Assembly (NCBI RefSeq): GCF_017349355.1 | Contig: NZ_JAFMPM010000005.1 | Location: 248,001-312,000 of the forward strand | Direction: 5' to 3' | Length of the DNA stretch: 64,000 nucleotides | Source: Thiothrix fructosivorans | GTDB lineage: Bacteria; Pseudomonadota; Gammaproteobacteria; Thiotrichales; Thiotrichaceae | Shown: positions 5,931 to 14,301 of the stretch, one piece after another | How positions within the stretch are numbered: position 1 is the first letter of the stretch | Layout: each line of letters opens with the position of its first letter | Made by a program: the position numbers and the translations under genes | The notes under the pieces: generated by a model | What the model was told of the DNA's origin: nothing | The model's input: only the letters and a program-made list of their open reading frames with translations | The model's database searches: none

Positions 5931-7178
5931 ATGTCCTGCGCCCCTACGGATCATTTATTACGATTTTTCCAGCAACAGTCTGCCACTGCTTACCTGATTG
6001 GCTTCAGTGGCGGGCTGGATTCGCACGTTTTACTTCATGCTTGCGCGGGTCTGCGTGAGCACTATCCACACTTAGCGTTTCGCGCCCTGCACATTGATCA
6101 TGGTTTGCAGGCGGTGGCGGCTGCGTGGGTGGAACATTGCCGTGCGGTGTGTGCGCGTCTGGCGATTCCTTTTGCGGTGGCGCATTTGCAGTTGCAGATT
6201 CCGGCGGGGGAAAGTCTGGAGGCGGTGGCGCGAACGGCGCGTTATGCGGCTTTCAGCCAGCATTTGCAGGCGGGGGAAATGCTGCTGACGGCGCATCACC
6301 AAAACGATCAAGCGGAAACGTTGTTGCTGCATTTGCTACGCGGTAGTGGGGTGAACGGGTTGGCGGCGATGCCGGAGGTGCGTCCGTTAGCGCGTGGCTA
6401 TTTGGGTCGTCCGTTATTGGCGTGTAGTCGTGCGGAATTAGCGACGTATGCCAAACAGCATGGGCTGAATGTCATTGATGATCCTAGTAATCAAGACAGC
6501 CGTTTTGACCGTAATTTTTTGCGCAATGAGGTCATGCCGTTGTTGGAACAGCGTTGGCCTGCGGCGAGTAAAACGTTGGCACGAGCAGCACGTTTGCAAG
6601 GCGAAAGCCGTCAGGTGTTGACAGCGTTGTTGCGCGAGAAGTTGCCGCATTTACACGGTTCTAAGCCTGACACGCTCGCGGTTAGCAAGCTGTTGGCTGA
6701 GGATGTGGCGATGCAAAAAGCCTTGTTGCGGGAATGGCTGACGTTACGTGGCTTCCGTTTACCGGAAGAGAAAAAGCTGCTGCAAGTATTGCGTGATGTA
6801 TTGCTAGCCCGTCCTGATGCAACGCCGTGTGTGCGTTGGGAGGGCTGCGAAATGCGCCGTTATCGGGATGATGTGTATGCTATGTCGCCTTTATCTGTGC
6901 ATGATCCTAAGCAGGTGTTGGTGTGGGAGACGCGCCAGCCCTTAGTGATTGCATCGTTGGGACGCACGTTGGTGGCGGAGGCGGGGTATCCTGCCAGTGT
7001 GATCGTGCGCTTTCGGCAAGGTGGGGAAAGCGTGTATTTGCCGCAGCGCGGCGGGCATCATAGCCTTAAGCATTTGTTGCAAGAGTGGGGTGTGCCGCCG
7101 TGGGAGCGGGAGCGTTTGCCGTTGGTGTATGTGGGGGAGCGGTTGATGTGGGTGGTGGGTCTACCCGTTCAGCCATGA
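5931..7178 (+). CDS. tilS: tRNA(Ile)-lysidine synthase
   Basis: A 415-residue enzyme that attaches lysine to C34 of tRNA-Ile(CAU), so that it reads AUA and is charged with isoleucine. The N-type ATP pyrophosphatase P-loop is present as SGGLDSH (residues ~24-30), followed by HIDHGL and HHQNDQAETLLLHLLRGSG. The C-terminal substrate-binding domains reach a normal end (LVYVGERLMWVVGL). The 3' end overlaps, on the other strand, a relic of a VapB-type antitoxin. Confidence 0.95.
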   Translation: MSCAPTDHLLRFFQQQSATAYLIGFSGGLDSHVLLHACAGLREHYPHLAFRALHIDHGLQAVAAAWVEHCRAVCARLAIPFAVAHLQLQIPAGESLEAVARTARYAAFSQHLQAGEMLLTAHHQNDQAETLLLHLLRGSGVNGLAAMPEVRPLARGYLGRPLLACSRAELATYAKQHGLNVIDDPSNQDSRFDRNFLRNEVMPLLEQRWPAASKTLARAARLQGESRQVLTALLREKLPHLHGSKPDTLAVSKLLAEDVAMQKALLREWLTLRGFRLPEEKKLLQVLRDVLLARPDATPCVRWEGCEMRRYRDDVYAMSPLSVHDPKQVLVWETRQPLVIASLGRTLVAEAGYPASVIVRFRQGGESVYLPQRGGHHSLKHLLQEWGVPPWERERLPLVYVGERLMWVVGLPVQP

Positions 7179-7257
7179 AGTCGGCGGTAGGACGCTGCGT
7201 GTCGTTGAAAAAGTCATCCCAATTCGTGGGTTTTGGTGAGAGGGTTGTCTGTGGCAT
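7130..7257 (-). pseudogene. Relic of a VapB-type antitoxin C terminus
   Basis: Read on the minus strand, this stretch encodes NWDDFFNDTQRPTADFMAER at about 7162-7224, followed by VDPPP. That closely resembles the toxin-binding tail of AbrB-fold VapB antitoxins (E. coli-type tail: WDEWFDG..SADFM.NREQP). The N-terminal DNA-binding half is absent, no VapC follows, and the end runs antisense into tilS. I read it as debris of an old toxin-antitoxin locus at the left edge of the retroelement. A chance match in an open frame cannot be excluded. Confidence 0.4.
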
Positions 7258-7372
7258 GGGTTTACTCCATGTTAGCGATGATGGTTCATGGTATATCGCA
7301 GCGTTAGGGCTTTCAAATTCTGTTTGCAAATCTGTCAAATATCCGCCACATTCGCAGGCGGGTTGGGGCAAC

Positions 7373-7494
7373 TCGCGGGGGTTCTTGGAACAATTCTACC
7401 GACAATGTGCGGTGCGCGATTCGTAACAGGAATCATCCTAACAATCGCAACAACAATCTGGGTTTTCGGTTGTTGTTAGAGAGTTGAGTTCTCC
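7373..7494 (+). repeat. DGR template repeat (TR)
   Basis: This 122-base stretch aligns without gaps to 10492-10613, the 3' end of the NACHT-FGE gene (offset 3119). Up to 7457 it contains 25 adenines; 17 are replaced in the variable copy, while only one other base differs (T at 7406 is C at 10525). Read in the target frame the template is full of AAC/AAT codons, the usual TR signature because randomising the A positions avoids stop codons. A 21-base block identical in both copies (7458-7478) is the candidate initiation-of-homology site. It is followed by a short divergent patch (GAGAGT here, GGTTGT in the target) that could be the IMH*/IMH distinction. Confidence 0.95.
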
Positions 7495-7660
7495 ATAGTC
7501 AACGGCTTGTACCCGGCAGAGCGGTGTATCCACGGATAGCCGCCGGTGGTGCAATGCCAACAGCCAGCTTGTCCCTGCCCAGATCGCGACGGTTTGCCCT
7601 CCGGTCAAATAGCGAAACTTTCCCGCATCCTGCCTTGGTTGGCACGGTGCGGGAATCCCT
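7495..7660 (+). ncRNA. Structured 3' part of the DGR template RNA / leader of the target gene
   Basis: The gap between TR and the target gene holds no plausible gene but has strong inverted repeats. One is an irregular hairpin at 7620-7655 (TTCCCGCA with TGCGGGAA, inner TGCC/GGCA, loop TTGGTT). A second is at about 7521-7543 (GCGG with CCGC, enclosing TATC/GATA), with an alternative outer pairing from CCGGC at 7513. Known DGR template RNAs extend past TR into a structured spacer needed to prime cDNA synthesis; by position this could serve that role. It also precedes the ribosome site of the target gene, so it could act as a leader. RNA boundaries are unknown. Confidence 0.5.
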
Positions 7661-7681
7661 TTCTGGAAAGGAGTTGGGCTT

Positions 7682-10606
7682 GTGTCGAAACGTACTTGGA
7701 TGTGGATAGGATTGGGATGCGTAGTTCTTGGCGTATTGCTGTGGAGCTTCCCAGATACTATTGTCGGTTGGATAGTCGGTGTTTTGGATTGGTGGCTCGG
7801 TTTTGACCCCGCACGTCGTGCTAGCGCTGAACAAATGGGTAGAACGATTGGTGGTTTTGTAGCGCCGATTAGTGCGATTGGAGGCGTGTTTACGGTATTG
7901 AATTTCTTTAAATCCCAAAAAGATGAGTCGAAAGATAGCGCCTTTCTGCTTAAGGCTTACTACGAAGCCTTGCATAAATCTTGCGAAAACATTGATTTGG
8001 CTCTGGTTAATGTGCGAATTACGGAATACGCCCGCAATGCTTCTAACAGTATTAATCTGCCCAAAGTCTATCAGGAAATGGATGTCGTCCCCTGCACTGC
8101 AAAACGACATGGTGTGGATGATACAGAGGGTGAGGAAGACGTAGAAGCAACGGGTAATATGCGTTTCCGTGGGCAGGAGCGTAAAGCCTTGATGCAAGCA
8201 AGTGCCGAAGAAGATTATCGGCGCGTGATTGTCTTGGGTGACGCTGGTTCAGGCAAAAGTATGTTCATGGATAATCTGGCGTGGCATATCGCTGGTTCTC
8301 ATATTGGCAAAACGGATAAACGTTTACCCGCTGAATTCAAGCGTCTGCCATTGATGCGCCTGCGTTTACGTTCGGTTGCATGGTGGTGTAAGAAAAATGG
8401 TTTTAGCGATGATACATTGCTGGATGCAATGCAACGTGAGATGCCTTTGCTGATGGGTGATGATGTCGGTAAACAAACATGGCAAGCACTTCAACCGTCG
8501 TTGTTAGCGGAAGGGATTATTCTGCTGGATGGTTTGGATGAAGTCCCTGAAACGGATGGAATGCGTCGGAATATGCTGGATGCAATAGATCGTCTTATTA
8601 GCATATTAGCCCCACAAGCGCGTTTGATTATTACCAGTCGTCCCTATGTGTTTGCAAGTGATGATTGTGCTTATTGGTTGGAGGCATTTCGTTGCCTTGA
8701 GCTTCAAGAAATGACAGATGATCAGGTGGAGAGCTTTGTTAATCATTGGTTTTTGTTGTTGCGTGAGGCAAAACAGCGTACCAAAGAAATGGCTGCAAAA
8801 CAGGCGCATCAGCTTTTTGTCGATTTGTCGGACAGGGAATATTTACTAACACCAGCCCGTCGTCCACTGATTTTGACGTTATTGGCTACGCTGCATTTTG
8901 CATATGAAATTTTGCCGCATTCTCGTGCTGAATTATACCGCGAGGCGATTGCGCTGATGTTAGAGCGCTGGACAATGCGAGCGTATCGAGAAAATGCGGA
9001 TTATCCATTAGAGGATTTTGAGAGAAAAGCCCTGACAGAAACGGAAGGAACGCGGATGGCTGCGTTGCAAGCCGTGGCATGGGATGCTCATAAGAATAAA
9101 ACCTTGCAAATAGCTGATACTGCAATCAGAGGGTTATTTTCAAAACATATTACCCGCAATAATAATCCAGCTAATTTATTGGATTTTATCCGTTTCCGCA
9201 GCGGCATTCTTAAACCGGGGCAGGGCGATAGTTTTGAGTTTTACCACCGTTCTTTTCAAGATTACTTGGTGGCGTTGGCTATTACGGAGATGGATAACTG
9301 GCAGGATGTCATTAATGATTTGTTACGAAAAGAGGGGAAAGATTGGTGGGGTGAAGTATTTTTGTTATTGATCAGTGCGAAGATGTCCGGCACTGATAAG
9401 CCGGGTGCTGTTTCGTTTTTATTGACGTATTACATCTATCCAGAAGTATTGGATTATGCGAATTATCCTGAAGATGAATGGCAGTATTTTTTCCTCGCCG
9501 CTCGTGCCACGGTTGAGCAGAAAAAGCCACTACAAAGCTATGCGAGTCCACAATATGAGAAGCTCAATAAGTGGTTGATACGGCATCTATTGCACTTGGT
9601 TGAAGGCGAATACCAATTGCCTGTGGAGGTGAGGGCTGAAGCAGGGCGTTTATTGGGCGACCTTGGTGATCCCCGTAGTGGTGTTGGTGTTATCCGTGAG
9701 GGTGAGCACAAGGGGCTGCCTGATATTAAATGGGAGTCTATTCCGGCTGGAAAATGCCAGATGGGGTTTGCGGCTGATGATGTTAAACGTTCATGGGATA
9801 AGCATTCAACCCCGCAACATTGGGTTGAAGTGTCTGCTTTTCAGATGAGCCGTTACCCTGTTACTAATGCTCAGTTCGCTTGTTTTGTGGAAGCTGGTGG
9901 CTATGAGAATGAGCGTTACTGGCATACCTGCGAAGCAGCTTATCAGTGGTGGAAAGGTGGAAAAGCAGATTTATCATTGTTGGATGATAATCCCAGTTTG
10001 AAAAAGAATTATGCAGAGGCATTGGCGGAAGAAAAGACACGCCGCCAGCCGTGGTACTGGGAACAACGCAAATGGAATAATGCGAATCATCCTGTCATTG
10101 GCGTGAGTTGGTATGAGGCATTGGCATTTTGTGAGTGGCTCAATATCACTAATGTTTATCAAGGTAAAGTGCGTTTACCGACAGAAGCAGAATGGGAATA
10201 TGCGGCTCGTGGTGAGGCAGGTTCGCGTTACGCTTGGGGAGATGAAGCTGATCCTGCGAAAGGTAATTACGAGGATACAGGGTTAGGTAGGACGTCGGCG
10301 GTAGGTTTATTTCCTGCTGGAGGTGCTTTCGAGAAACAACATGCTCAACTGTATGATTTGACAGGTAACGTTTGGGAGTGGACAAGCAGTCAGTGGGGTA
10401 AAAAAAGCGGTTCACCAGATTTCACCTATGATCAGTGGGCTGTTCAGGAAAAACAGCGAAATAACCTGAACGAACATGCCTTGCGAATAATTCGCGGGGG
10501 TTCTTGGGACGATTCTTCCGTCGGCGTGCGGTGCGCGGTTCGTGACTGGCTTCATCCTGACGATCGCGACCCCATTCTGGGTTTTCGGTTGTTGTTAGGT
10601 TGTTGA
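7682..10606 (+). CDS. NACHT NTPase with C-terminal FGE/C-type-lectin domain, DGR target protein
   Basis: A 974-residue protein starting at a GTG with the ribosome site AAAGGAG at 7667-7673. The N terminus has hydrophobic segments at about residues 6-24, 25-41 and 55-76, so membrane anchoring is likely. A NACHT-type NTPase follows, with Walker A GDAGSGKS (186-193) and Walker B LLDGLDEVP (281-289). From about residue 680 to the end is a formylglycine-generating-enzyme/C-type-lectin fold (RYPVTNAQF, HPVIGVSWYEA, RLPTEAEWEYAARG, LYDLTGNVWEW, IRGGSWDD, GFRLLL). The last 37 residues are encoded by the DGR variable repeat; altered codons include residues 943, 944, 946-948, 953, 955-957, 960, 961 and 963-965. 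In DGR targets this fold is a ligand-binding scaffold. I infer a sensor whose diversified lectin face controls the NTPase, as in bacterial conflict or cell-death systems; the ligand is unknown. Confidence 0.93.
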   Translation: MSKRTWMWIGLGCVVLGVLLWSFPDTIVGWIVGVLDWWLGFDPARRASAEQMGRTIGGFVAPISAIGGVFTVLNFFKSQKDESKDSAFLLKAYYEALHKSCENIDLALVNVRITEYARNASNSINLPKVYQEMDVVPCTAKRHGVDDTEGEEDVEATGNMRFRGQERKALMQASAEEDYRRVIVLGDAGSGKSMFMDNLAWHIAGSHIGKTDKRLPAEFKRLPLMRLRLRSVAWWCKKNGFSDDTLLDAMQREMPLLMGDDVGKQTWQALQPSLLAEGIILLDGLDEVPETDGMRRNMLDAIDRLISILAPQARLIITSRPYVFASDDCAYWLEAFRCLELQEMTDDQVESFVNHWFLLLREAKQRTKEMAAKQAHQLFVDLSDREYLLTPARRPLILTLLATLHFAYEILPHSRAELYREAIALMLERWTMRAYRENADYPLEDFERKALTETEGTRMAALQAVAWDAHKNKTLQIADTAIRGLFSKHITRNNNPANLLDFIRFRSGILKPGQGDSFEFYHRSFQDYLVALAITEMDNWQDVINDLLRKEGKDWWGEVFLLLISAKMSGTDKPGAVSFLLTYYIYPEVLDYANYPEDEWQYFFLAARATVEQKKPLQSYASPQYEKLNKWLIRHLLHLVEGEYQLPVEVRAEAGRLLGDLGDPRSGVGVIREGEHKGLPDIKWESIPAGKCQMGFAADDVKRSWDKHSTPQHWVEVSAFQMSRYPVTNAQFACFVEAGGYENERYWHTCEAAYQWWKGGKADLSLLDDNPSLKKNYAEALAEEKTRRQPWYWEQRKWNNANHPVIGVSWYEALAFCEWLNITNVYQGKVRLPTEAEWEYAARGEAGSRYAWGDEADPAKGNYEDTGLGRTSAVGLFPAGGAFEKQHAQLYDLTGNVWEWTSSQWGKKSGSPDFTYDQWAVQEKQRNNLNEHALRIIRGGSWDDSSVGVRCAVRDWLHPDDRDPILGFRLLLGC

Positions 10607-10613
10607 GTTCTCC
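10492..10613 (+). repeat. DGR variable repeat (VR)
   Basis: This is the diversified copy of the template at 7373-7494. It covers the last codons of the NACHT-FGE gene, its stop codon and seven bases beyond. Differences from the template are almost all at template adenines (A to G, T or C, 17 sites in the core), plus T to C at 10525 and a short difference at 10599-10604 around the last two codons. The block 10577-10597 is identical to the template and is the candidate IMH where cDNA integration would begin. Confidence 0.94.
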
Positions 10614-10765
10614 CTGGCTATGCTGGGATGCTGTGGACTGGTATGCTGGTTTCTGATTCCTGTTCTTCTGAATACTAAAACGTTCAGCTTGGCAGGCTGC
10701 TAGAATAAGTGAGATAACGGTGAAGTTACGCAAAGAACGCCGCGTAGCGGCGACGCGCAAAAGTT

Positions 10766-11860
10766 ATGGCAAAGGTATTCGATAATTTGTATCCACAGTT
10801 GCTGGAATTCAGCAATCTTTACGAAGCGTGGCAAAAAGCCGCGAAGGGCAAGCGTGGCTGCCCCGCTGCCGCCAGCTTTGAGATGAACCTTGCCGATGAA
10901 TTGATCCGCCTGCAACGTGAATTGACCGACCAAACATGGCAACCGGGCGAATACTATTCCTTCTACATCCGTGACCCCAAAAAACGGTTGGTATCCGCCG
11001 CGCCGTTCCGTGATCGTGTGGTACATCACGCCCTACATAACATCACCGAAGCCATTTACGACAACACCTTCATAGGCGACTCCTACGCCAACCGCAAGGG
11101 CAAAGGCACACACGCCGCCATCGACAAGGCTCAACGCCTGATGCGTCGCTACCCCTACGTGCTGCAATGCGACCTGCGCCAATTTTTCCCCAGTATCGAC
11201 CACGCGGTGATGGAATCGCTGCTCTACCGCAAAATCACCGACGAAAAAATCCGTTGGCTGATGCGCCAAATTGTCAAAAGCGGGGAAGGCATCCTCACGG
11301 GTGAATACCAGATGGTGTATTTCCCCGGCGATGATCTGTTCGCCGTCAACCGACCGCGTGGGCTGCCTATCGGTAATCTCACCAGCCAATTCTGGGCGAA
11401 TGTCTACCTCAACGAACTTGACCAGTTTGTGAAGCGCGAACTGGGTTGTCGGGGTTATGTCCGTTACGTTGATGATTTTCTGCTGTTTGCCGATAGCAAA
11501 GCGCAATTGTGGCAATGGAAAACCGCTATCCGCGAATTCCTGTTTGGTTTACGCCTTGCGCTGCATGAAAAATCCAGCACGGTTTACCCCATCACCAGTG
11601 GCATTCCGTTTCTCGGTTTCCGTCTTTACACCGATCACCGCCGCCTCAAACGCAAAAATGGGGTGAATTTCCAACGGCGTTTACAGCGTTATTACCGTGA
11701 ATATGCACGGGGTGAATTAAGCCATGAGGATTTGAACCAGCGCATTCAGGGTTGGGTGGCACATGTGAAACGCGCCGATACGTGGGGTTTGCGGCGTAAT
11801 TTGTTTGCCAAATCCGTGCCCGTGCGCAAGGTAACGGGAAGAGGGCGCAAAGTTGCATGA
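10766..11860 (+). CDS. DGR-type reverse transcriptase
   Basis: A 364-residue reverse transcriptase of the group II intron/DGR lineage. Visible motifs are the catalytic aspartate in CDLRQFFPSID (D136), LPIGNLTSQ at 200-208 (the form characteristic of DGR enzymes) and the active-site YVDD at 234-237, followed by LGFRL and a basic C terminus. No maturase or endonuclease domain is present. It would copy the template RNA with errors at adenines, giving cDNA that replaces the variable repeat. A GC-rich hairpin (CGCCGC-GTA-GCGGCG, 10738-10752) sits just before the ATG, where no strong ribosome site is seen, hinting at low or controlled translation. Confidence 0.95.
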   Translation: MAKVFDNLYPQLLEFSNLYEAWQKAAKGKRGCPAAASFEMNLADELIRLQRELTDQTWQPGEYYSFYIRDPKKRLVSAAPFRDRVVHHALHNITEAIYDNTFIGDSYANRKGKGTHAAIDKAQRLMRRYPYVLQCDLRQFFPSIDHAVMESLLYRKITDEKIRWLMRQIVKSGEGILTGEYQMVYFPGDDLFAVNRPRGLPIGNLTSQFWANVYLNELDQFVKRELGCRGYVRYVDDFLLFADSKAQLWQWKTAIREFLFGLRLALHEKSSTVYPITSGIPFLGFRLYTDHRRLKRKNGVNFQRRLQRYYREYARGELSHEDLNQRIQGWVAHVKRADTWGLRRNLFAKSVPVRKVTGRGRKVA

Positions 11861-12189
11861 AAGAATCCCCCTTATTTGCCAAAAGCTACGATTTTATCCG
11901 CTGGCTGATCCCCCAAACCGTCAAGTTCCCCCGCAACCAACGTTTTGTTGTCACCGAACGTCTGCAAACGACGGCGATGGATTTCATGGAATGCCTGTAT
12001 CAGGCAACCGACAAGGCGCAACAAACTACCGCACTCAAACAGGCTGACGTAAAACTCAAACAGCTACGTTTTTACTTACGCCTCAGTCACGACCTAACAC
12101 TCCTAGACACGCGCCGTTTTGAACATGCTAGCCTTTTGTTGGAAGAAGTCGGGCGCTTGTTGGGTGGGTGGTGTAAATCCACTGTATAG
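11857..12189 (+). CDS. avd: Avd-like four-helix-bundle DGR accessory protein
   Basis: A 110-residue, helix-rich basic protein whose ATG overlaps the reverse transcriptase stop (ATGA), indicating coupled translation. Size, helical pattern (FIRWLIPQTVKFPRNQRF ... LQTTAMDFMECLYQA ... KLKQLRFYLRLSHDL ... LLLEEVGRLLGGWCK) and position match Avd and the related four-helix-bundle (23S rRNA intervening sequence) family. Known Avd proteins form basic pentamers that bind the reverse transcriptase and template RNA and are needed for diversification. Here avd lies after the RT gene rather than between target and TR as in the Bordetella phage prototype. Confidence 0.88.
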   Translation: MKESPLFAKSYDFIRWLIPQTVKFPRNQRFVVTERLQTTAMDFMECLYQATDKAQQTTALKQADVKLKQLRFYLRLSHDLTLLDTRRFEHASLLLEEVGRLLGGWCKSTV

Positions 12190-12201
12190 AGTAACTCGCC
12201 A

Positions 12202-12708
12202 ATGCATACCTCATCAGACGAACACTGGATGCGCCACGCCCTAACCCTTGCCCAAAACGCATGGCAACAAGGTGAAGTTCCCGTCGGTGCTGTCATCATT
12301 CGCGACGGCGCAATCCTCGCCGAAGGCTGGAATCAGCCGATCACGTTGCACGACCCTTCCGCCCATGCCGAAATGCTTGCCATGCGTGCCGCCGGTATTG
12401 CTGCCGAAAATTACCGCCTGCCGAATACAACGCTCTACATCACGCTTGAACCGTGCCTAATGTGCGTCGGCGCAATGCTACACGCCCGTATCGAACGTGT
12501 TGTCTTCGGTGCGTATGACCACAAAACTGGCGCGGCTGGCAGTGCGTTCAATCTGCTGCAAGACCCGCGTCATTATCACAAAATCGTGGCAGTGCAAGGT
12601 GGGGTATTGCAGGAAGAATGCGCTGCGTTATTACAGGCATTCTTCCGAGAACGGCGAGCGGCTGCCGCCTTAGCCAAACCAGCGGCGCAGCGTGCGACTC
12701 AGCCATGA
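12202..12708 (+). CDS. tadA: tRNA-specific adenosine deaminase
   Basis: A 168-residue zinc deaminase converting A34 to inosine in tRNA-Arg(ACG). The zinc and catalytic motifs are HAE (residues 55-57) and PCLMC (84-88), with the typical GEVPVGAVIIRDG start. The 3' end overlaps the convergent downstream gene by 39 bases, so the alanine-rich tail (RRAAAALAKPAAQRATQP) is encoded opposite that gene's C terminus. It starts 12 bases after the Avd-like gene and so may be transcribed with the retroelement, but functionally it is housekeeping. Confidence 0.95.
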   Translation: MHTSSDEHWMRHALTLAQNAWQQGEVPVGAVIIRDGAILAEGWNQPITLHDPSAHAEMLAMRAAGIAAENYRLPNTTLYITLEPCLMCVGAMLHARIERVVFGAYDHKTGAAGSAFNLLQDPRHYHKIVAVQGGVLQEECAALLQAFFRERRAAAALAKPAAQRATQP

Positions 12709-14301
12709 ATCGGTTGGTGCTGGCGTAGGGGTGGGTGTCGGCGCAGGCGTAACAGGCGTCGGAGTGGGTGTCGGCGTAACTGGCGTGGGTGTTGGAGTCG
12801 GCGCAGGTGTAACCGCTGTCGGGCTGGAAGCCGTTTGCGTGCCATTCGCGAACTTAATTAATTGCTCCACAATTGCTGCTAAGGGTGAGCCTTGCTGGGT
12901 GGAAGCGGATTTCGCGGCGGTGCGCCACGCACTCGGTACAGCCGTACCCGCCGCCCATGTACCGGTCGCTTGCGCATCATAAGCCGTTTTTGCGCGTAAG
13001 CCCTTGCCCGGTGTCCACAGGAAATCAGGGTGCTTGTTGGTATACCATTCGCCACCGATCACTGTTCCCGCTGCATCCAGCTCCAGATCGTAGTAATAGG
13101 TGACTTTTTGAATCGCGTCTTGTGCCGCGCTGTCGCTTTCACGCTGGCTAGGATTGGTTTCGACCACGTAGGAAACATCCATGCGGATACCGACCATCGA
13201 ATGCGCTTGCGTGCTGCGATACGCCTTGAATTTATCGTTGGTGTACGCCGCTTTGGTGACGGTTGCTCCGGCTAAGGTGCTGGCGTATTGATTACTTTGC
13301 GGATTGAAATAGCGGTATTCGTAAGCGTGGAGCGGCTGATTCCAGACTTCGTAATCGAAGGTCACGTCCAGCACCGTGCTGCGCTTGCTCACGCCAATCT
13401 GGTTCACGATAGCCAAATGCCATGAGCCGGGATTCGTATCGAAGCAATCCGCCGATTTAACGCGCCCCGTGATGGCATCAGCAGCGGGATCTTTGTCATT
13501 GCAACGCCCACCGATAAAGCGTGTCGCACTCGCCGCGTTTGCCCACAGCAACGACGACAATGCTTTAATGTCAGACGGGTAAAACTTGATGGCAACGCCG
13601 CTAGGGGTTTTCAGCGTCACGCTCTTGGTCGGACGCGCCAGCATATACGCAGCGGGTGCCCAGCCGTGACAGATACCCATCCACGTTTCGACCGAACCAT
13701 TGGTGTCGTAATAGGATTTACCTTCCGCCCACATGTTTTTGGTCAGGGATTCATTGGTATCGCCGACCAGCGCATCGTATTTTTCAGACGGGGAAAGCTG
13801 GTTGATTTTGGTGGCATTGCCGCTGGCTAGAATCGTCGCAGCCGGTGCATTACGCACGTAATCAAAATTCTTTTTCCAATCGCTGGATTTAGGGAAATTC
13901 GGGTCGGCATAACGTGCGCCCAAAATTCCTTTATAAATCGCCCAGTAATCGTCTGACCACGGGGATTCCGCCAAGGATTTCTTTTTAAGCCCTGCCGTTT
14001 CCATATCACTGAGCTTGCTGTACGTCAGCGCATCCACGAGGTTAGCGGGTTTATCGTTGGAAGCAATCGCTGCCCGCGTTGAGGCTTCACCACTGCCGGG
14101 TTGTAAGACGTGCATCCGCTGCGTATCGCGTGCGTCAATGTAGTCCAGGCTGTCAATGTCAGCTTGTGAAAACAGCGTCATACCGCGCACGGGGTTGCCT
14201 GCGGCATCCGTTTTTGGCGGTTGACGGTTCATGAAGGTTTTGGGGTCTTGTGCAAAGGCAGCAAGATCAGCATTGATTTGCTGTTCGATTGTGTTAGGCA
14301 T
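12670..14301 (-). CDS. Transglutaminase-elicitor-like protein with Pro/Thr-rich tail
   Basis: A 543-residue protein preceded by a clear AAGGAG ribosome site. Features such as SPWSDDYWAIYKGILGARY (~113-131), LSPSEKYDALVGDT, WMGICHGWAPAAYM (207-220, candidate catalytic C211) and NPGSWHLAIVN (candidate H295) resemble the transglutaminase-elicitor family first known from Phytophthora and also seen in bacteria. A Cys-His-Asp transglutaminase or protease-like activity is an inference. No signal peptide is evident. The C terminus is a low-complexity linker of TPTPTP and TPAP repeats followed by a short basic-aromatic tail (DSWLSRTLRRWFG). Confidence 0.6.
   Translation of the reverse strand: MPNTIEQQINADLAAFAQDPKTFMNRQPPKTDAAGNPVRGMTLFSQADIDSLDYIDARDTQRMHVLQPGSGEASTRAAIASNDKPANLVDALTYSKLSDMETAGLKKKSLAESPWSDDYWAIYKGILGARYADPNFPKSSDWKKNFDYVRNAPAATILASGNATKINQLSPSEKYDALVGDTNESLTKNMWAEGKSYYDTNGSVETWMGICHGWAPAAYMLARPTKSVTLKTPSGVAIKFYPSDIKALSSLLWANAASATRFIGGRCNDKDPAADAITGRVKSADCFDTNPGSWHLAIVNQIGVSKRSTVLDVTFDYEVWNQPLHAYEYRYFNPQSNQYASTLAGATVTKAAYTNDKFKAYRSTQAHSMVGIRMDVSYVVETNPSQRESDSAAQDAIQKVTYYYDLELDAAGTVIGGEWYTNKHPDFLWTPGKGLRAKTAYDAQATGTWAAGTAVPSAWRTAAKSASTQQGSPLAAIVEQLIKFANGTQTASSPTAVTPAPTPTPTPVTPTPTPTPVTPAPTPTPTPAPTDSWLSRTLRRWFG

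Follow-up and report, generated by a model that had tools for sequence, protein, structure and literature searches.

The window, that is, the whole 64,000-nucleotide stretch of Thiothrix DNA analysed here, covers C5:248001-312000 of a 4.36-Mb genome in eight contigs (label G000). Its plus strand carries a template repeat (TR, 7373-7494), which is preceded by a conserved 5' flank (7322-7372, from about GTTTGCAAA onward) and followed by a structured 3' spacer (7495-7656) that ends with a terminator-like hairpin (7622-7653). Next comes a target gene encoding 974 aa (7682-10606), and the variable repeat (VR, 10492-10613) lies at the end of its open reading frame, so that the VR codons run to the stop codon. 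A conserved CTG-rich element (10614-10680) and a short inverted repeat (10739-10758), the latter immediately 5' of the reverse transcriptase (RT) start, lead to the RT gene (10766-11860, 364 aa) and the accessory gene avd (11857-12189). The reading frames of target, RT and avd are uninterrupted from start to stop, and the last two overlap by four bases. Judged from its sequence, the locus is a real and intact Avd-type diversity-generating retroelement (DGR). The initial annotation had described a complete DGR with adenine-directed change, and this is backed by the statistics of the two repeats, the Avd models, the RT motif and the RT tree; we add that the conserved RNA does not end with the TR but continues to about 7656, and that the target combines a NACHT and an FGE domain. 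Relatives were sought in 63 genomes of the order. Five cassettes belong to the same genus, those of the window and of genomes G004, G014, G002 and G007, and both the 5' flank and the CTG-rich element align in all five. The inverted repeat is also present in G004 and G014 and is altered in G007. Next to the DGR, on the minus strand, lies a reading frame with a Pro/Thr-rich repeat tail (12670-14301), which is encoded by imperfect repeats at 12720-12827.

RTs of DGRs carry the motif [LIV]GxxxSQ instead of QGxxxSP. The window RT, a PF00078 protein, contains both LPIGNLTSQ and YVDD, as had been noted before, and QG is found in the six RTs of our tree that lie outside the DGR group. This tree comprises 20 rows, 14 of which, the window RT and the BPP-1, BalMu-1, ANMV-1 and HRDC-type DGR RTs among them, form that group (support 95/98). 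All six other RTs lie outside, two of them as long branches, and one (G001_2620k) adjoins the group on a weak fork. The RT phylogeny suggested by the initial annotation thus places the window RT among the DGR RTs and not outside their clade. The closest solved RT is BPP-1 bRT (8ub7, E 1.5e-45). The Avd-like protein, also predicted before, scores 104 bits against NF033474 (cut-off 80) and matches PF22296 (E 3e-21) as well as 4dwl and chain B of 8ub7.

TR and VR align without gaps over 122 bases at a spacing of 3119, in agreement with the initial annotation. The VR differs from the TR at 19 of 29 adenines and at two of 93 other bases (0/26 C, 1/32 G, 1/35 T; Fisher p=4.2e-13). The earlier count of 17 changed among 25 core adenines corresponds to 17 of 26, plus one T, within 7390-7480, the gap being a matter of where the core is taken to end. 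The same bias is seen in 5/5 genus cassettes, where 83/148 adenines and 4/462 other bases differ. Since direct repeats occur near many genes, one might explain the pair by duplication followed by ordinary mutation or gene conversion; we regard this as practically out of the question, given the adenine bias, the RT and Avd adjoining the pair, and non-adenine letters that follow the local template. The TRs of G014 and G007 differ from each other at 13 positions, and at 13/13 of these each VR has the letter of its own TR.

The same behaviour is found between close relatives. Within the genus, the TRs match that of the window at 95% (G004), 88% (G014), 85% (G002) and 83% (G007). The VRs of the orthologous DGRs of G004 and the window differ at 17 positions, 15 of which are adenines in both TRs; the identical or randomly differing VRs that would have spoken against the initial annotation are thus not seen. 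The two non-adenine differences (positions 76 and 97 of the repeat) are sites where the TRs themselves differ. At position 97 each VR has the letter of its own TR (G in the window, T in G004), and at position 76 both repeats of the window carry C, the TR of G004 carrying A and its VR G. We dropped the idea that the A at 76 was gained in the TR of G004, because G014 and G007 have it too; the window TR may therefore be the changed one. As the two VRs differ at TR adenines and follow their own TR, mutagenic homing has likely taken place in at least one of the two lineages since they split. VRs that follow their own TR are an indirect sign of mutagenic retrohoming, and the element is presumed to be active at present.

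Ten codons of the TR are of the AAY type, each of which can give 15 outcomes, and none of the codons ahead of the stop can itself turn into a stop. A codon tally gives an encoded diversity of about 10^14.6-10^14.7 protein variants. Elsewhere in the same genome, a remote VR candidate at C8:1458095 (30 nt, 87%, E 0.01) and six weaker TR matches (E 0.9-5.6) were treated as chance. A conserved hairpin 3' of the VR was not found, as the one in the window is weak and unconserved in the genus cassettes; the CTG-rich element, which has no clear hairpin, may be a stand-in for the cruciform of BPP-1.

The TR is the 5' part of a larger conserved element of approximately 335 nt (about 7322-7656), whose 3' part is the structured spacer. 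In the five genus cassettes, about 50 bases 5' of the TR and 162 bases 3' of it are conserved, and the target bodies are not. We built a covariance model of 183 positions (7474-7656, ending at the hairpin), which matches 9 of the 63 genomes of the order. Five of them are of this genus, and the remaining four come from four different genera; owing to strict filters, this is a lower bound. For the covariation test, the nine sequences were realigned with MAFFT (A5) and folded afresh. In the resulting fold 96.3% of cells pair, and double changes occur at 17/40 pairs. The covariation reached 0.359 vs 0.213 in shuffles; on four of five measures 0/500 shuffles, and on the fifth 5/500, matched the real value. 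Sliding the alignment by 1-3 columns lowers the pairing to 30-47%. These values are to be read with the caveat that four of the nine rows were found by a model already holding the structure and that the five genus rows are closely related. The spacer is a covarying structured RNA. Its end hairpin, which the alignments define and which is helix 6 of the covariation test, is followed by a T-run in G004, G014, G002 and G007 and by a weaker one in the window. Our terminator scan did not list this hairpin and gave no excess over chance, and neither did the promoter scan (5 found, 6.3 expected). A search of 7000-12800 against Rfam returned a single match (E 0.39), located outside the TR RNA. As to cassettes on phages, an exact 24-nt spacer pattern hit 0 stretches in viral_contigs, and the spacer model had no match above noise in BPP-1, in the Leucothrix and Anaerolineales elements discussed below, or in the second DGR of the genome. 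In BPP-1, the spacer adopts a fold, brings in RT-Avd and carries the adenine used for priming (PMC12875486). By analogy, docking of RT-Avd and priming is the likely role of the window spacer. A remnant of the 5' flank and the first half of the TR (81% over 117 nt) is found in G003 (L048 7836-7952), where the spacer model has no match.

The target carries a NACHT ATPase domain (8219-8752, PF05729, E 1.3e-13) with the Walker motifs GDAGSGKS at aa 186 and LLDGLDEV at aa 281, and a C-terminal FGE/C-type-lectin (CLec) domain (9737-10594, aa 686-971, PF03781, E 1.7e-51). The latter was assigned by sequence, an AlphaFold2 model from four sequences (pLDDT 44.6) having been discarded. The N-terminus is hydrophobic, with hydropathy peaks within the first 80 aa. 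NACHT and FGE domains are also present in the targets of G004, G014, G002 and G007. A padloc search gave no match for the target. The protein is a NACHT protein of the STAND type and, judging from its family, probably an immune-type receptor.

The bodies of the target proteins, i.e., the parts outside the FGE domain, vary strongly behind one and the same RNA and fall into two NACHT classes and one KAP-like type. The window body shares 22-23% identity with those of G004, G014 and G007, 24% with G052, 30% with G002 and 26% with G070. The bodies of class B, which are those of G004, G014, G007 and, from another genus, G052, share 66-90% with one another. G004 nevertheless has in common with the window the DGR site between the same genes, the RT (97%), the Avd (95%) and the TR RNA. 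Identity between the two is 92-96% over TR and spacer, drops to about 44% over most of the body, climbs to 67% through the FGE part, and is at least 85% from the VR onward. G004 vs G014, by comparison, gives mostly 61-86% through the body and 51% at its start. On this profile, the exchange falls within the stretch from the 3' end of the TR RNA to the VR, and its exact 3' limit cannot be seen, as the VR is rewritten by homing. The receptor body thus appears to have been exchanged between these two boundaries at least once at the site shared by the window and G004, which is the one site that gives a direct view of such an event. In G041, from another genus, the order TR-target-RT-avd is the same as in the window (RT 73%, avd 80%), and 19/19 differences between the repeats are at adenines. 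Here, a predicted KAP-like NTPase reading frame followed by an FGE reading frame replaces the NACHT protein; the two may be one split gene.

An intact RT adjoins the cassette in three of the nine RNA-bearing genomes (window, G004 and G041). G052 has an RT fragment with a stop, four genomes (G014, G007, G002 and G070) have no RT beside the cassette, and in G069, whose assembly is 83% complete, the cassette reaches the contig end before any RT. In G014, no RVT_1 match was obtained in the whole genome, and in G070 there was no match to the window RT at 1e-8. G002 has partial RT matches (36%; aa 12-155 and 265-345), and among its other RTs the one on C45, the only one placed in the tree, lies outside the DGR group. 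G007 has RT fragments at C16 and C125 (43-55% identical) and two intact RTs beside HRDC genes. The repeats nevertheless differ mainly at adenines, with 16/17 differences in G014, 20/21 in G002, 15/15 in G007 and 14/15 in G052. In G070, 7/10 over 113 nt and 11/16 over 122 nt (p 4e-4) are at adenines, and this cassette is decaying.

It could be argued that the RT-less relatives are artefacts of assembly or come from incomplete genomes, and that the picture of two separable units is false. G014, G002, G007 and G070 are indeed drafts of about 40-130 contigs, and G069 is the incomplete assembly whose cassette runs into the contig end. On the other hand, the four drafts are rated 99-100% complete, and their cassettes lie well within contigs. 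G014 and G007 share a common chromosomal site without an RT, at which the target is followed by a BrnT gene in G014 and by a DUF559 gene in G007. Moreover, G004 is a single contig, and the contrast between its receptor body and that of the window is independent of the RT-less drafts. We therefore consider an artefact rather unlikely. The targets of G014 and G007 have diverged to a dS of about 1.0, with a dN/dS of 0.064 (last 60 codons left out), and their spacers differ at just 12/162 bases; five of the 13 TR differences fall in the last 16 bases. Since each VR has the letters of its own TR at these 13 positions and the spacers are close, the machinery has worked in at least one of the lineages after their parting, and the RNA has remained constrained. 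G014 also retains the short inverted repeat found 5' of the RT start in the window. This, together with the different downstream genes, fits separate recent losses of the adjacent RT and counts against supply in trans. In general, RT-less cassettes may reflect loss of the RT, supply in trans, or an RT kept by some cells of the population. Apart from these cassettes, the C16 contig of G007 carries another DGR (L123 6961-8495) with a reversed avd and an RT in separate fragments; its TR and VR differ at 18/29 adenines and 0/104 other bases, so that a fresh-looking VR stands beside a broken RT. A degraded second Avd-type DGR was observed in G004 (L029 7207-8723; G004:C1:2112000-2127000), whose RT is split in two, with avd on the other strand and an FGE-like reading frame nearby.

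For the history of the site, the joined flanks tilS-tadA were matched against other genomes. The pair matches without interruption in G006, G012, G011 and G013 and with one of about 0.1 kb in G005, and the two genes are separated by about 0.9 kb in G001 and G009. They lie far apart or on different contigs in G002, G007, G010 and G014; G003 matched in the tadA part only, and G008 gave no match. In G015 (L121 950-6490; G015:C1:809000-816500), 5.7 kb between tilS and tadA hold transposase-like reading frames along with remnants of RT (aa 1-30) and avd, and a DGR engine has decayed in place. One may ask whether the window DGR, too, is a recently silenced relic with intact RT and Avd and a frozen VR. 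At position 34 the window TR has a T in place of the C that is present in its VR and in the other four TRs of the genus. As this TR-specific letter is absent from the VR, the VR was probably not rewritten across position 34 since the TR changed. Similarly, at TR positions 108 and 110, which account for two of the 19 adenine differences, the changed base may be in the window TR and not in the VR, because the TR of G004 carries the VR letters there. TR letters missing from the VR at position 34 and probably at 108-110, six of nine related cassettes that are without an intact adjacent RT or stop at a contig end, and the insertion elements with RT/avd remnants at the G015 site would all be in line with a relic. 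However, RT and avd are open and under strong purifying selection (dN/dS vs the same-genus G004 of 0.033 and 0.032, respectively), and 19 of the 21 TR/VR differences are at adenines. We thus judge a silenced relic to be distinctly unlikely.

The window element resembles BPP-1 in its RT (33.6% identity, same tree group), the presence of Avd, the similar TR/VR length and a spacer after the TR. The BPP-1 order is mtd(VR)-bbp7(avd)-TR-brt; here the spacer separates the TR from brt, and bbp7 is the Avd-like chain 4dwl. In the window, TR and spacer lie 5' of the target and 3.1 kb away from the RT, and the target is a NACHT-FGE protein instead of a tail protein. The initial annotation was right that the order TR-target-RT-avd is unlike that of BPP-1, but it gave the order too much weight, since it is not new in kind. 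According to the available text of PMC6642488, 948 DGRs fall into 122 arrangements, and DiGReF, as far as its account is accessible (PMC3521204), lists the BPP-1 pattern for 56.6% of DGRs and no strict order. Given these arrangements, we rejected the TR-first order as a novelty. The nearest named RTs (50-55% identity) are those of Leucothrix pacifica (L054) and of Anaerolineales (L052, L053 and L055), a fifth one, L056, having been left aside. Avd adjoins each of the four, and NACHT/FGE-like targets occur in L053 and L054. The gene order of L053 is that of BPP-1; in L054 the TR follows directly on the target and avd is reversed; and in L055 the sole target-like segment found is 3' of RT and avd.

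The window genome has a second DGR outside the window (L009 3972-10601; G000:C5:403000-420000), with FGE-type targets and a DGR RT. It differs from the window DGR in having an HRDC accessory gene rather than Avd, a MoxR-type AAA gene, and the TR after the RT. Its VR1 is adenine-biased (10/11 differences), and in a second FGE reading frame the VR is shifted by one base relative to the TR.

In its target class, the window DGR resembles the DGRs of Thiohalocapsa PB-PSB1 and the clade 5D STAND-CLec targets, with which it shares a NACHT-CLec target and RT-less relatives. The part of PMC10907252 available to us reports, for Thiohalocapsa PB-PSB1, targets of the NACHT-CLec type, several DGRs in one genome, RT-less loci termed "degenerate", diversification in trans, shuffling that gives targets different N-terminal parts, and population cells retaining the RT. 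We therefore do not claim RT-less loci as a first report. The same part of this account describes neither a TR RNA with a structure that lies 5' of the target nor an exchange limited by TR RNA and VR. Our literature search likewise yielded no covariance-supported TR RNA family ahead of a target, no body exchange bounded by TR RNA and VR, and no DGR report for Thiothrix, which is not proof of absence. The DGR mechanism and the target class were already known; what is new is the structured RNA, along with the set of bodies exchanged behind it.

Taking all facts together, the best explanation, in which we have high confidence, is a cellular DGR of the Avd type by which the binding tip of a STAND (NACHT) receptor is varied. 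In this process the TR RNA (about 7322-7656) would be transcribed, and its 3' spacer would fold and recruit RT-Avd. A cDNA copied from the TR, its adenine positions filled with random bases, would then take the place of the VR in the target gene. In the FGE/CLec domain this would alter as many as ten AAY codons and a small number of further ones, with no stop reachable within the VR. The receptor probably acts as a sensor, and binding of a ligand by the tip would make the NACHT part trigger an N-terminal, probably membrane-linked, effector. TR RNA and target would belong together as one unit that can part from the RT-avd unit, an engine that is missing or broken in most related cassettes.

More tentatively, and as a possibility rather than an expectation, we suggest a two-part adaptive receptor system. 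The RT-avd engine might be kept or lost independently, and receptor cartridges, each consisting of the structured TR RNA and a STAND/CLec gene, might be swapped among loci and genera, with TR and VR, which in the TR-first order flank the body as direct repeats, providing the points of exchange. The tip of an arriving body would soon be overwritten by the resident TR, which would make the body compatible; cartridges without an engine would be served in trans or by an engine that arrives in a hit-and-run manner. The known DGR mechanism is not overturned. The work provides a sequence-defined template RNA for the whole family, whose covariance model finds DGR cassettes that would escape an RT-based search, and a set of natural cases in which similar engines go with different receptors. 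These make testable the modularity of DGR receptors in this family, as well as the fate of receptor and template after the loss of the engine.
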